From: Tepidanaerobacter acetatoxydans Re1
GTDB lineage: Bacteria; Bacillota; Thermosediminibacteria; Thermosediminibacterales; Tepidanaerobacteraceae
DNA length: 64,000 bases
Assembly (NCBI RefSeq): GCF_000328765.2
Contig: NC_019954.2
Span: forward strand, 2,028,516-2,092,515
Reading direction: 5' to 3'
The position numbers and the translations under genes were made by a program. Below are positions 35,541-48,630 of this stretch, one piece after another (within the stretch, counting starts at the first letter, position 1; each line of letters opens with the position of its first letter). Below the pieces are notes generated by a model that was given only the letters and a program-made list of their open reading frames with translations, had not been told where the DNA came from and searched no databases.

Positions 35541-35584
35541 AAAATATAAAAAGCAAGGGAACTGGTTTCAGTTTCTCCTTGCTC
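35541..35584 (-). terminator. Terminator of the stress-type protein gene
   Basis: An imperfect hairpin with AGCAAGG/CCTTGCT outer arms (35552-35584) is followed on the minus strand by TTTTTATATTTT. It lies 34 bases after the stop codon of the gene at 35618. Confidence 0.75.
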
Positions 35585-35617: not shown

Positions 35618-36109
35618 TTACTTTATATTAACATCGCTAGCACCATTTTGTCTGAAAATGTCAGCTGCCTTTTCGACTTTCTGTTCATGCGTCCTTACAG
35701 CGGCCAATATTTTCCCTTGTTTAATTTCATCTTCATAATGTTTACCCTGTTCTTCGGGTATTCCCCAATCGATAAGGCCTCCAGCCACACCACCTGTTGC
35801 TGCCCCCGACAGCAGCCCTGCAATTGGTCCTGCCGCGATAATAGGTCCGAAGCCCGGTATTGCCAAAGCACCTGCACCCATGGCAAGACCGGCAAGGCCG
35901 CCCAAAGCTCCGCCCGTAGCAGTGCCGCCGGCAATCGTACCCATATTTAAGGCAGTATCATCTTCACCGTTGCCACTATTTCGGTCGGCCTGTTTATCCT
36001 TTGCTACAATTGATATTTCGTTGGTATCATATCCGGATTTCCTAAGCTGTGCTACGGCTTTTTCAGCTTGATCATAATTATCAAATACTCCGATAACAGT
36101 TTTTACCAT
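35618..36109 (-). CDS. General-stress-protein-17M/YflT-like glycine-rich protein
   Basis: This 163-residue protein starts with a YflT-type domain (MVKTVIGVFDNYDQAEKAV, residues 1-40). A long Gly/Ala-rich segment follows (about 55-115) that may insert in membranes. It ends in a short alpha/beta tail with GKILAAVRTHEQ. The domain occurs in Firmicute stress proteins of unknown mechanism. The ATG used here is 12 bases from AAGGAGG; a closer ATG touches that site. It is transcribed away from the coiled-coil gene at 36248. Confidence 0.75.
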   Translation of the reverse strand: MVKTVIGVFDNYDQAEKAVAQLRKSGYDTNEISIVAKDKQADRNSGNGEDDTALNMGTIAGGTATGGALGGLAGLAMGAGALAIPGFGPIIAAGPIAGLLSGAATGGVAGGLIDWGIPEEQGKHYEDEIKQGKILAAVRTHEQKVEKAADIFRQNGASDVNIK

Positions 36110-36247
36110 TTTTACGAGCATCCTCCTTGCGATGATTTTAGATCAATCTTATTCTATCCTTATTTCTTTTAAACTATTCTCTGCATGGTTAATACGAAAA
36201 AAGGGAATATTATTTAACGATGATTTCTATTTTCGAGGAGGAATTAT

Positions 36248-36829
36248 ATGACAGATAAAAAAGATGCCGCACAAAACAATAAATCAGACAAGGTTATGAA
36301 TGAAATCAGCCAAGAATTAGGCACCAACACAGTCAACCGGATTCAGGAAATCGCCGATGAAACCCAGCGGCTAAAAAATACTCAATATCAAAATCCGCAG
36401 CATCAGCAGTTTTCACAAGAAATCAATTGTTTGGTAAATTCGGCTCGAGAACAGCAGATGTCGTCACAGCAGCAGCTTCAATCCACTCTCAATCAAGCTT
36501 CTACAAATCTTATCGACTCCGGACGCCTGGAAACCCTTTATGGTAATGCTCAAAGGCTTCAACAGGCAGCACAGTTAGGCATTTCAAATCTTCAAATAAA
36601 TATAGAGCAGTATAAAACAATGATTGAACAGATGGAGAAGGACTGTCATCAGCAGCAAGTAGCCACTGATACACAAGTGGTCCAATCTTTGCAGCAAGCC
36701 ATATCTTCTATGGCTCAAGCTCAAAATAGTCTACTCCAAAGTCAAGCAGTTGATAAAATGTTTGATTCAATAACAAAATGCCAAGATAGTCTTGCACAAA
36801 TAGAACAGATTAATCAGCAAACCAAGTAA
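36248..36829 (+). CDS. Gln-rich coiled-coil protein of unknown function
   Basis: This 193-residue protein is not recognised. It is highly hydrophilic and very rich in Gln, with long helical stretches (NRIQEIADETQRLKN; IEQYKTMIEQMEKDCHQQQ) that suggest coiled coils. It has no signal peptide or membrane segment and two or three Cys. GAGGAGG lies seven bases upstream, so translation is credible. It faces the FG-GAP/SPOCS gene tail to tail. A structural role, for example in spores, is conceivable from context only. Confidence 0.7.
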   Translation: MTDKKDAAQNNKSDKVMNEISQELGTNTVNRIQEIADETQRLKNTQYQNPQHQQFSQEINCLVNSAREQQMSSQQQLQSTLNQASTNLIDSGRLETLYGNAQRLQQAAQLGISNLQINIEQYKTMIEQMEKDCHQQQVATDTQVVQSLQQAISSMAQAQNSLLQSQAVDKMFDSITKCQDSLAQIEQINQQTK

Positions 36830-36921: not shown

Positions 36922-38349
36922 TTATGGGTCATAACAAAATGGTACTAATTTTACAAGCATCTCAAACAATATTGTAACTTTCACCATCCTAGGGCTTACC
37001 GCACACACATTTATGTGCTCTACATTGAAATATACCAGAGCCTGCATACCTGGCGATGCGCCGCAAAGATGAATAAATTCCAAAAAAGGAATCCTCGCCT
37101 CAAAAAAGTGCACCGGCTGACTTGGTAAAGCAGCTACATAAAGAATCTTGGCAATAACTTCACCATCGACTATAATCTTGTCACACAGCACTCTTACTTC
37201 ATCAATGCAAAATTTAGCCTTGGCTTCAACTCCGCGTTCCGCATCGGGTTTTCCGTCAGGTATAGTCACAGTATCCTGAATTATTGCTTGAACTTTTCCC
37301 ATCCAAAGTTTGCCATGATGGCGGTCACGTCGGGCTTCGAATACATAAATATATCCATAAATGGTACCTACGACTATCTCGCCATAGCCTTGCTGATTCA
37401 ATTCACCGGCTGCTACACAAAAGGCACCGTTAGGCACTGTCTGAGTCCATTCCAAAATAATTTTTCCGGATTTCCAACTGTAAATATAAACATTGCTTAA
37501 ACAAATTACTACCAATTCTTTCTGCCCATCACCGTCAATATCATATATAGCCACATCCTTGATGCTTTGATCGTGGGCAGGGCTATCCCAAAATGTTTTA
37601 TATGCGCCTCCCACATGATGCAGAACCCTGGCTTTACTGCCGGTACAATCTAGGACTATTTCGTGTTTTCCGTCCAAGTCAAAATCACCAACTGCAAGAA
37701 ACGCCTTCCCGGCATCGGGAATATGGCTGCTCCACCTTTCACACCTCTGACCGCTTCTAAAAGACAGCACATATAGCATGCACCCCTGTGGCCCATGGGT
37801 TTTTACAATCACTTCAGGACAGCCATCGCCATCGGTATCCGCTGCCGCAACACAACAAACTTGATGCTTAAAAATCTCCGACTTTACAAGCACTAATCTT
37901 TCATCATAGCGAAATATGAGTATTTGAGGTTTACCTTTAACTACAGCTATAATCTCATATTTCCCATCTTTGTCTATATCCGCTACAGCTATGCTAACTA
38001 CAGCTTCCCTTATTTGAGTACTTTCAGCAATCTTAATAAGTTGGCCTTTCAGCATCTTATATATATAAATACCACATGTTGTACCAACAATTATTTCATC
38101 AAGACCGTCCTTATCTATATCATGGCAACCTATCCAATGAGTATCATTATTGCCTAATGATACCTGAGCCAACTGGTGATAATTCTCATTTCTATACTGA
38201 AATACATACAAATTCGATTGCTGCCCTGATGATGCAGTAGTTCCTGCAATAATGTTCATTTTCCCAGAACCGGCCACATTTCCTAAAGCCACTCGAGATT
38301 CCTGTCCTAGGTCCTTACTTGCCCATTCTAGTTGGTATGCTTGCCTCAT
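36922..38349 (-). CDS. FG-GAP/VCBS repeat protein fused to a SPOCS (DUF3794) domain
   Basis: The start MRQAYQLEW has GGGAGGGAAAGG just upstream, giving 475 residues. Residues about 20-355 hold at least five FG-GAP/VCBS repeats with calcium-type loops: DIDKDGLDE, DIDKDGKYE, DTDGDGCPE, DFDLDGKHE, DIDGDGQKE. These should fold as a beta-propeller. Residues about 375-475 match SPOCS/DUF3794 (KIIVDGEVIAKILYVA, QPVHFFEARIPF, PGMQALVYFNVEH, SPRMVKV), known from SipL and other spore-coat proteins. There is no signal peptide, so it acts in the cytoplasm, possibly the mother cell. The combination is unusual. Function is inferred from domains only. Confidence 0.85.
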   Translation of the reverse strand: MRQAYQLEWASKDLGQESRVALGNVAGSGKMNIIAGTTASSGQQSNLYVFQYRNENYHQLAQVSLGNNDTHWIGCHDIDKDGLDEIIVGTTCGIYIYKMLKGQLIKIAESTQIREAVVSIAVADIDKDGKYEIIAVVKGKPQILIFRYDERLVLVKSEIFKHQVCCVAAADTDGDGCPEVIVKTHGPQGCMLYVLSFRSGQRCERWSSHIPDAGKAFLAVGDFDLDGKHEIVLDCTGSKARVLHHVGGAYKTFWDSPAHDQSIKDVAIYDIDGDGQKELVVICLSNVYIYSWKSGKIILEWTQTVPNGAFCVAAGELNQQGYGEIVVGTIYGYIYVFEARRDRHHGKLWMGKVQAIIQDTVTIPDGKPDAERGVEAKAKFCIDEVRVLCDKIIVDGEVIAKILYVAALPSQPVHFFEARIPFLEFIHLCGASPGMQALVYFNVEHINVCAVSPRMVKVTILFEMLVKLVPFCYDP

Positions 38350-38460
38350 TTGCCTTTCCCTCCCCCGAACAAAAACTTTCACATAAAAATCAATTCTTCT
38401 TTATATCATATTCAAATGGGCGGGAAAAGGACTATCAAGCTTAATGCTTCAATAAAGATT

Positions 38461-45210: not shown

Positions 45211-48200
45211 ATGCTACATATAGCAAAAAAACATTGGAAAAATTATTTTATTCCTTTGCTTGTAACTATCCTCATTTTCACCGCGGCATTAATGCCTGCT
45301 TTTGCTCAGGAGATACTTCTATACCAAGCAAGTGATGGTTTTCCTGTAACAGGCGGTGTAACCTATGAAGAACAAACTTTGTTTACTTCTCTGGGCTGGC
45401 AAAAAATTCATATTTTAAGAGCTGACCTCACATCGGATAATGTAGATATTGATACCATTATAGGTAGTGAAGGTCTTTCCCCGCGTGCCGCCTTAAATAA
45501 AATGGTGCAGGATAACGGTGCTGTAGCCGGAATTAACGGAGACTTTTTTATTATGGCTACACCCTCGGCTCCAATAGGACCTCAGGTAAGTAACGGAAAG
45601 CTGGTTTCTTCGCCGTTAAATCTTCCGGGGATGTCCGCTATAGGTCTTACATTTGATAAGATTCCTGAAATATTACAAATGGAATTTTCCGGCCGGCTTA
45701 TAGCTCCCGATCGCAGTTACTTTTTTGTAGATGGCGTAAATAAGATACGCGACAGCTATAATCATATTTTCGTGTATACACCTGACTTCGGAAAATCAAC
45801 ACCTAAACCCGGTGCCGGCGCACCTAATCTAACTTTTTTAACAGTAAAAGATAACCGTGTTGCAAACATTTCTGAAGGTCAAACCGCTGAAATTCCAACA
45901 GACGGTTTAGTGCTTATGGCTTGGGGTGATGGCGCCAATTTTATGAAAACACATTTTACCATAGGTGATCCGGTTGAACTAGATTTAACCATTACACCCG
46001 ACATTTCAAATTTAAAGATGGCTCTCGGCGGTGGTGCTGTTTTAGTAGATAATGGCACAATACCAAAAACTTTTTCCCATAATATTGCCGGAACACATCC
46101 TCGAACTGCAATAGGTTTTACTGCAGATAAAAAGACCATGATAATGGTGGTGGTTGACGGCCGTCAAGCAAAGAGCCGCGGGATGACTCAGCAAGAATTA
46201 GCTGAGCTTATGTTAAAACTTGGTGCTCACTATGCGCTAAACCTGGATGGCGGCGGATCATCTACCATGGTAGCAAAACCTTTCTATGAATCTCAGACAA
46301 AAGTTGTCAATAGCGTATCCGAAGGTGTCCAAAGATTGATTACTAATGCCGTCGGAATCTTTTCAAAGGCTCCTTTAGGTCAAGTTCACGGTCTTAAAAT
46401 AACCGCATCTTCCTTTAATATCGCTCAAGGCGGCCACAGGACTTTCGAGGTTAAGGCATACGATAAAAACTATAATCTCGTCGACTTCGACCCAGAACAG
46501 GTCAAATGGAGTGTTACCGGAGATATAGGTTATTTTGATGGTAATATGTTTACTGCCGAAAAGAGTGGGGCAGGCCAAGTTATTGCTACTTTAGGCGGTA
46601 TTCAAGCTTCTGAAGATATAAGGGTTTTAAAAGACAGTGTAACACTTTCCGTAGAACCTTCAAAAGTTCAAGTAAATCCCGGTGCAAAGACTACCTTCAA
46701 GGTTTATGTGACTGATACAGATGGGTTTAAAACTCTATTGGACCCTGTCGATATTAAATGGGAAATAGTCGGTGACATTGGCTATATGAACGGTCTTGAA
46801 TTTACTGCCGGGCAAGCTGCAGGCAGCGGTGCCGTAATTGCTGAGTTTTCCGGGCTAAAGGCCGGAGCATTGGTTCAAACCGGTTACTATAGTAATTTAG
46901 TAGATGATTTTGAAAGTATAGCGGAAAAATCGTTTAGTTCATATCCGGCCGATGTAAAAGGTTCTTTCGGCATTACTTCATCACCTGAACCGGTATATTC
47001 CGGTCAATCTTCCGGCAGGTTAGATTATGACTTTACAAGCGGAACTGCAACCAGGGCTGCTTATCTTGCTTTCGGAAGCAGCGGTAAAGCTCTTCCGTCA
47101 GGTTCTACCAAACTTAGATTATGGGTTTACGGTGAAAATCAGGGCGAATGGCTTAGAGCTGCTATCCAAGATGCTTCAGGCAAAGAAACCATCCTTGACC
47201 TTGCTAAAAATATAGACTGGGAAGGATGGAAGCAGATTGAGGTATCAATTCCATCCGGCAAGCAGCCTTTCACCTTAAAGACGATCTATGTTGTAGAAAC
47301 AAATCCTGAAAAAAGCACTAAAGGAACCGTTTATTTTGATGAACTTACTGCCCTGATTGCCGGAAACTACGATGAATCACTTCTGCCTCAAACACCTATT
47401 TGGACTGATGCAGCCAATCAAAAAGGCAGCGGCTTTACCTTTGGAGTGGTAGGTACAAAGCCATTAACAGATAGTAGTCGAACGGATTATGATAAAACAT
47501 TGTCTTTAGCCGCAAAAATTATAAACAAGTCAAATCCCAGCATAAGTATAGTAGCGGGCCAACCTTGGGCCGACGATAATTCGCTTAAAGAACAACTAGC
47601 AGATTTTAAAAATTATCGAATAAGCGGTAAGGGTTATTCGATGTTATCTGAAAAAGATGCCAATTTTATTTTCTTAGATGCAACAAAGGGCAGCCTTCGC
47701 TCAACAAACTACAATCAATGGATAAGCCTGCAAAAAGATTTGGCCTCCCTTGACAAGACAAAAACTCTTTTTATCATTATGGACAGAACTCCAGAAAGTT
47801 TTTCCGATTCTTTGGAAGGAGAATTGTTAAAAAAAGTCCTTACTGACTATGCCGAATCTTCCGGCTCCAATGTATGGGTTTTGAGCGGCGGCGGTGCGGC
47901 AGCATTTAGCAGCAAAGCGATAGATGGAGTTCATTATGTCTGTGTGCCCAGTATAAACTCACCTGAACCTGCTGTGGCAATATTTAATGTTTCCGGCGGA
48001 ATTGTAAATTATCAAGTCATTCCGCTAGTTGAGCAGATTATATCTGAAACTTCAACGGTTAAAGCAGGTGTTGCCACCAATCTCAAGATTTACGGAATAA
48101 GTCCTACAGGCTGCAAAATACCTTTGGGTTATCCTTACGCCTGTGAATGGAAGGTTGCTTATGAAAAGCCTATAGGATTTGATACAAAAACCCTTGCTTT

Positions 48201-48630
48201 TAAAGCCGTAGATGCAGGCACTGCATCGGTTCAGGTTTCGGTAGGAGATATATCTAAATCCTTTCCGATTACAATTACCGATATTTCAGTGCTGGTAAAC
48301 GGCAGGGAGGTTAACTTTCCTGATGAACTGCCTTATGTAAATCAAGACAGCAGAACCATGGTTCCGGTAAGATTTGTTTCCGAAAGTCTCGGAGCTAAGG
48401 TAAGTTGGGATAATGACAACAGAATGGTTATAATTGATAATGAAGATAAGATTATAAAATTAAAAATCGGAGAAAACAAGGCCGATATAAATGGCAAAAC
48501 CGTAGTATTCGATACCAGTGCCATAATCCAGAACGGCAGGACAATGGTGCCGGTAAGATTTATCAGTGAAGCCCTTGGCGCAAAAGTCGGTTGGAATCAG
48601 GCAACCAAAACAGTGGAAATTGAATATTGA
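45211..48630 (+). CDS. Large secreted phosphodiester-glycosidase-type protein with Ig-like and Cu-amine-oxidase-N repeats
   Basis: This 1,139-residue protein has a signal peptide cut near AFAQE (about 33). Residues 60-390 are a phosphodiester glycosidase (NAGPA/DUF2233) domain with GINGDFFIM and LNLDGGGSSTMV. Two Ig-like (Big) domains follow (395-560), then a carbohydrate-binding-like beta-sandwich (about 570-720; DDFESI, YSGQSSGRLDYDF). A metallophosphatase-like region occupies about 735-940. The C-terminus has two Cu_amine_oxidN1 repeats with SRTMVPVRFVSESLGAKV and GRTMVPVRFISEALGAKV. The last module is a cell-surface anchor-like domain in Clostridia. It probably acts on wall or capsule phosphodiesters. 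GGAGGG precedes the start. Confidence 0.9.
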   Translation: MLHIAKKHWKNYFIPLLVTILIFTAALMPAFAQEILLYQASDGFPVTGGVTYEEQTLFTSLGWQKIHILRADLTSDNVDIDTIIGSEGLSPRAALNKMVQDNGAVAGINGDFFIMATPSAPIGPQVSNGKLVSSPLNLPGMSAIGLTFDKIPEILQMEFSGRLIAPDRSYFFVDGVNKIRDSYNHIFVYTPDFGKSTPKPGAGAPNLTFLTVKDNRVANISEGQTAEIPTDGLVLMAWGDGANFMKTHFTIGDPVELDLTITPDISNLKMALGGGAVLVDNGTIPKTFSHNIAGTHPRTAIGFTADKKTMIMVVVDGRQAKSRGMTQQELAELMLKLGAHYALNLDGGGSSTMVAKPFYESQTKVVNSVSEGVQRLITNAVGIFSKAPLGQVHGLKITASSFNIAQGGHRTFEVKAYDKNYNLVDFDPEQVKWSVTGDIGYFDGNMFTAEKSGAGQVIATLGGIQASEDIRVLKDSVTLSVEPSKVQVNPGAKTTFKVYVTDTDGFKTLLDPVDIKWEIVGDIGYMNGLEFTAGQAAGSGAVIAEFSGLKAGALVQTGYYSNLVDDFESIAEKSFSSYPADVKGSFGITSSPEPVYSGQSSGRLDYDFTSGTATRAAYLAFGSSGKALPSGSTKLRLWVYGENQGEWLRAAIQDASGKETILDLAKNIDWEGWKQIEVSIPSGKQPFTLKTIYVVETNPEKSTKGTVYFDELTALIAGNYDESLLPQTPIWTDAANQKGSGFTFGVVGTKPLTDSSRTDYDKTLSLAAKIINKSNPSISIVAGQPWADDNSLKEQLADFKNYRISGKGYSMLSEKDANFIFLDATKGSLRSTNYNQWISLQKDLASLDKTKTLFIIMDRTPESFSDSLEGELLKKVLTDYAESSGSNVWVLSGGGAAAFSSKAIDGVHYVCVPSINSPEPAVAIFNVSGGIVNYQVIPLVEQIISETSTVKAGVATNLKIYGISPTGCKIPLGYPYACEWKVAYEKPIGFDTKTLAFKAVDAGTASVQVSVGDISKSFPITITDISVLVNGREVNFPDELPYVNQDSRTMVPVRFVSESLGAKVSWDNDNRMVIIDNEDKIIKLKIGENKADINGKTVVFDTSAIIQNGRTMVPVRFISEALGAKVGWNQATKTVEIEY

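Follow-up and report, generated by a model that had tools for sequence, protein, structure and literature searches.

Most of what is known about coat assembly in Clostridia comes from SipL and SpoIVA of Clostridioides difficile. The LysM domain of C. difficile SipL binds SpoIVA (PMC6436350), and the SPOCS domain of SpoVID binds CotE and SafA (PMC10867305). Tepidanaerobacter acetatoxydans is a spore-forming syntrophic acetate oxidiser (PMC3587937). We analysed a stretch of 64,000 nucleotides (the window) from the genome of strain Re1, a single contig of 2,761,252 bases. One gene of the window encodes an FG-GAP beta-propeller joined to a single SPOCS domain. The gene, its domains, and its surroundings are as follows, with positions counted from the first nucleotide of the window.

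36922..38349, minus strand: propeller-SPOCS gene, 475 aa, with a conserved ATG start
37330..38340, minus strand: predicted seven-bladed FG-GAP beta-propeller, residues 4-340 (AlphaFold, Pfam, motif scan)
37003..37245, minus strand: SPOCS domain (PF12673), residues 369-449 (Pfam, AlphaFold)
38353..38366, minus strand: Shine-Dalgarno region GGGGGAGGGAAAGG of the propeller-SPOCS gene, conserved
38404..38431, minus strand: conserved promoter-like element [A/T]C-N16-GAATAnnATA of the propeller-SPOCS gene (footprint across relatives)
36248..36829, plus strand: convergent neighbour encoding a Q-rich helical protein of 193 aa, conserved and co-deleted in a non-sporulator
36183..36212, plus strand: conserved promoter-like element GCATG-N15-GGGAATATTA of the Q-rich gene (footprint, window scan)
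35618..36121, minus strand: conserved neighbour encoding a YflT-domain protein (PF11181, 46 bits), co-deleted in a non-sporulator

Gene, propeller, and SPOCS domain

The reading frame runs on the minus strand from an ATG at 38349 to a stop at 36922. The start (MRQ...) is kept among relatives, and the DNA 5' of it varies. An upstream GTG at 38382 is not conserved and was rejected as the start. The full-length orthologues are 38-99% identical to the protein. In 13 of them the frames are open and the mean column identity is 67%; therefore, a chance open reading frame can be dismissed. The first 60 residues contain neither a hydrophobic N-terminal stretch nor a signal peptide (19-residue Kyte-Doolittle maximum 0.73).

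The propeller is matched by two Pfam profiles, FG-GAP_3 (81.9 bits against a cut-off of 26.9, E = 5e-23, five stretches) and FG-GAP (47.9 bits against a cut-off of 22.1, E = 1e-12). A motif scan finds strict DxDxDGxxE loops at exactly five sites (residues 77, 124, 171, 222, and 270). Degenerate loops are located near residues 25 and 316, and the first loop position is intact as DVNGDG in close relatives. The AlphaFold model, built from 12 orthologues, places 28 strands up to residue 340 with a mean pLDDT of 85.2. Read from the strand list, these would form seven blades of four strands each, blade 7 being completed by the N-terminal strand. The loops are of the calcium type by sequence, and Ca2+ binding is putative. 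The nearest folds found by Foldseek are the propellers of the BBSome, KICSTOR ITFG2, and the integrin heads, all of which are interaction platforms.

A low-confidence hinge (residues 341-348) separates the propeller from the SPOCS domain. The SipL/SPOCS profile PF12673 matches residues 369-449 with 70.6 bits against a cut-off of 23.6 (E = 1.4e-19), and an independent whole-genome scan recovers the same domain at 74.4 bits. The structural domain spans approximately residues 349-469. When modelled alone from 16 sequences, it consists of six long beta strands with a pLDDT of 91.6. A search of the PDB gives no significant match to the domain by sequence or by fold (best fold E 0.09). SPOCS thus appears to be without a close solved structure, and this single-SPOCS version, which models confidently, could suit structure work.

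The initial annotation had proposed an FG-GAP propeller with at least five DxDxDG repeats, followed by a SPOCS domain, in a protein lacking a signal peptide. Pfam and AlphaFold confirm this architecture: both domain types score well above their cut-offs, and the model shows a putative seven-bladed propeller and then a six-stranded SPOCS domain. The five repeats are the strict loops, and the fold model goes further than the repeats in predicting seven blades. The lack of a signal peptide agrees with the Kyte-Doolittle scan.

Searching a viral fold library with the structure model returns generic propellers only. In viral contigs, no relative of the protein was found, and hence there is no sign of phage origin.

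Sporulation, neighbouring genes, and promoter-like elements

The propeller-SPOCS architecture occurs in 16 of 26 class genomes, namely 12 of 13 from the same family, one of nine from the sister family, and three of four others. Within its own family the gene is missing from G001 only. This genome belongs to the same genus, is 99% complete, and lacks Spo0A, SpoIVA, and all PF12673 domains, SipL included. The rpoN-asd interval of G001 is syntenic with that of the window; the DNA aligns up to about position 35558 and resumes in asd. The deletion is precise, removing exactly the propeller-SPOCS gene, the Q-rich gene, and yflT; the comparison represents one independent loss of sporulation, in which the whole trio may have gone in one deletion event.

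Eight of the nine sister-family genomes, together with G022, have SipL (and SpoIVA where tested) and are missing the propeller-SPOCS gene. Therefore, the gene is not essential for sporulation, and its product more likely specialises the coat than builds its base. The initial annotation suggested a spore-coat or exosporium role, and its spore connection is upheld by the SPOCS domain, by the sporulation-linked presence and deletion of the gene, by homologues in the sipL slot (see below), and by the promoter-like elements. The gene is not one restricted to non-sporulating relatives; it is the non-sporulator that is missing it.

The neighbours follow a similar distribution. The yflT gene is kept in 25 of the 26 genomes of the class and is missing only from the non-sporulator, which suggests a spore role here for the YflT 'stress' family. 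The Q-rich gene is present in 22 of the 25 class genomes other than G001. Its product has no family match above cut-off. It is a candidate new spore protein, as the gene is deleted with sporulation and follows a forespore-sigma-like promoter. The cluster of all three genes is also present in G024, outside the order. The three-gene block thus provides new candidates for sporulation genes. Further along the window (45211-48630, plus strand) lies a gene for a phosphodiester glycosidase (NAGPA) that is large, looks secreted, and has a C-terminal domain of the copper amine oxidase N-terminal type.

Matched by eye to the Bacillus consensus, the element [A/T]C-N16-GAATAnnATA of the propeller-SPOCS gene is one that we take to be SigK-like. 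An element of the same form is positioned upstream of one multi-SPOCS gene in this genome. A strict-string search of the whole genome finds only the gene's own site, fewer matches than are given by reversed control patterns, and the strict string therefore defines no regulon. The region upstream of sipL looks SigE-like, unlike that of the propeller-SPOCS gene. A SigE-type promoter for the latter was considered and rejected, its -35 ATA being unconserved. The pattern GCATG-N15-GGGAATATTA has a single match in the window, that of the Q-rich gene, and, likewise compared by eye, presumably represents a promoter of the forespore (SigF/SigG) type.

Distant LysM-bearing homologues and origin of the fusion

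Searching 399 Bacillota genomes with a profile identifies seven further, distant full-length homologues, which match over positions 3-466 with E values from 1e-77 to 1e-55. The six that were aligned are 24-33% identical to the propeller-SPOCS protein. Each of the six examined consists of a propeller, a SPOCS domain, and a C-terminal LysM domain; the LysM is clear in three and marginal or just below cut-off in the other three. The class and the distant proteins have a common N-terminal motif, a Y with a W four residues on. All six distant genes lie upstream of ispE in the same orientation, either adjacent to it or separated from it by a single gene. In the genome of the window, this slot holds a canonical SipL (three SPOCS domains and LysM), and the propeller-SPOCS gene itself is located between rpoN and asd. 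We considered whether the distant group might be devoid of further SipL-like proteins and rejected this, as a protein with three SPOCS domains and LysM is encoded elsewhere in all five genomes read. Where tested, all genomes with the propeller-SPOCS gene also carry another SPOCS-LysM or SPOCS protein.

In a tree without long rows, one branch (81/84) unites the SPOCS domains of the two propeller groups, and the class's own SipL domain 1 lies nearest to them (75/82). In a larger tree that includes the long rows, the two groups are separate. A joint clade is thus only moderately supported.

The data fit best, although they do not prove, one ancestral fusion of a propeller at the sipL locus, after which the gene moved and lost its LysM in the Tepidanaerobacter class. 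Two independent fusions, one in this class and the other in the distant LysM group, would account for the different loci (rpoN-asd versus ispE), for the confinement of LysM to one propeller group, and for the split in the larger tree. Such a double origin is nevertheless somewhat unlikely, as the profile matches extend over the full length, the Y/W motif is present in both groups, and the tree without long rows unites them. A tentative possibility is that, in several distant Bacillota lineages, the ispE-adjacent protein is the putative SpoIVA-binding SipL of its lineage, with the propeller replacing the first repeats; the protein of the window might then be a LysM-less descendant specialised to recruit one coat client.

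His/Asp/Lys-rich runs (HDKDHDK...), perhaps metal-binding, are present inside a protein with three SPOCS domains and LysM (locus L202, 3567-5300, minus strand) and likewise form the C-terminal tails of the propeller-SPOCS orthologues at loci L052 and L054. A protease of about 320-340 aa that looks to be of the trypsin/Nal1 type recurs near SipL-type genes of many genomes (L112, 1715-2737; L201-L204, L206).

Proposed role and comparison with described proteins

The propeller-SPOCS protein is probably a SipL-family coat-morphogenesis adaptor whose propeller recruits a client. It would be a SipL paralogue, its propeller standing in for the first SPOCS repeats. The lack of a signal peptide and the form of the promoter point to synthesis in the mother-cell cytosol. 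The SPOCS domain would dock the protein on the coat-morphogenesis network that surrounds the forespore; the rigid, calcium-type, predicted seven-bladed propeller would hold a client protein of the coat or exosporium. In distant Bacillota, the C-terminal LysM may tether the protein directly to the basement layer of SpoIVA. Members from the Tepidanaerobacter class have lost LysM, and their attachment would have to be via SPOCS alone or via another protein. The adaptor picture is drawn from the contacts of the SpoVID SPOCS domain with CotE and SafA and from the binding of SpoIVA by the LysM of SipL.

Alternatively, the protein could be a late structural component of the coat or exosporium, anchored by SPOCS and displaying its propeller outward, for example to bind metal or glycans. 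This would be consistent with a promoter-like element unlike the SigE-like element of sipL and similar to that of a multi-SPOCS gene located among glycosyltransferase genes, near a TasA-like gene. The His/Asp-rich C-terminal tails of some relatives and the absence of the gene from some sporulators would also be consistent with it. We consider a structural role unlikely, because the LysM-bearing homologues occupy the sipL slot beside ispE and because the SPOCS domain clusters closer to SipL than to the multi-SPOCS proteins of the surface type. A cytosolic stress or metabolism protein that reuses SPOCS and is unrelated to spores, as the housekeeping neighbours rpoN and asd and the adjoining YflT-type stress-protein gene might indicate, is very improbable, given that the gene is lost together with sporulation, that its neighbours are lost too, that the 25 other class genomes all retain yflT, and that distant homologues are found at the sipL locus.

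The initial annotation knew of no described protein with this combination of domains, and none was found in the literature searched, the coverage of which is incomplete. It missed that the combination is not a one-off; the propeller-SPOCS proteins are a conserved family related to SipL, and the gene is linked to two neighbour genes. A conserved SipL-family protein with a large interaction domain suggests that SPOCS is a modular scaffold, and it offers a handle on how different coat and exosporium layers are recruited in other spore formers.

The described FG-GAP seven-bladed propellers (integrin alpha head, BBS7/BBS2, and ITFG2) have the fold and the calcium-type loops in common with the protein of the window. 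They are eukaryotic, are joined to other partner domains, and are about 10-18% identical to it.

The multi-SPOCS proteins encoded next to glycosyltransferase genes in the same genome (about 860-871 kb) have SPOCS in common with it, and one of their genes is preceded by a promoter-like element of matching form. They lack a propeller, contain three to four SPOCS repeats, and are more distant in domain sequence. The surrounding locus (L111, 856-872 kb), with multi-SPOCS proteins, glycosyltransferases, and a small TasA/camelysin-like protein, has the appearance of a spore-surface (exosporium) locus.

The Bacillus proteins SpoVID and CotE resemble it, by domain name, in SPOCS-type coat morphogenesis (PMC10867305, PMC6436350). 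SpoVID has a C-terminal LysM, and neither protein is described with a propeller.

SipL (C. difficile CD3567 and clostridial homologues; PF12673 and LysM) is needed for coat encasement and for the heat resistance of spores. The LysM-bearing distant homologues have the same SPOCS-LysM order as SipL and the same ispE-linked slot. The protein of the window has the SPOCS domain in common with SipL. However, SipL has three SPOCS domains, whereas this protein has one, with the propeller in place of the first repeats; SipL ends in a LysM, which Pfam does not detect here; and a canonical SipL with three SPOCS domains and LysM coexists in the same genome. As it differs in the number of SPOCS domains, in LysM, and in locus, the protein of the window is SipL-like rather than SipL.
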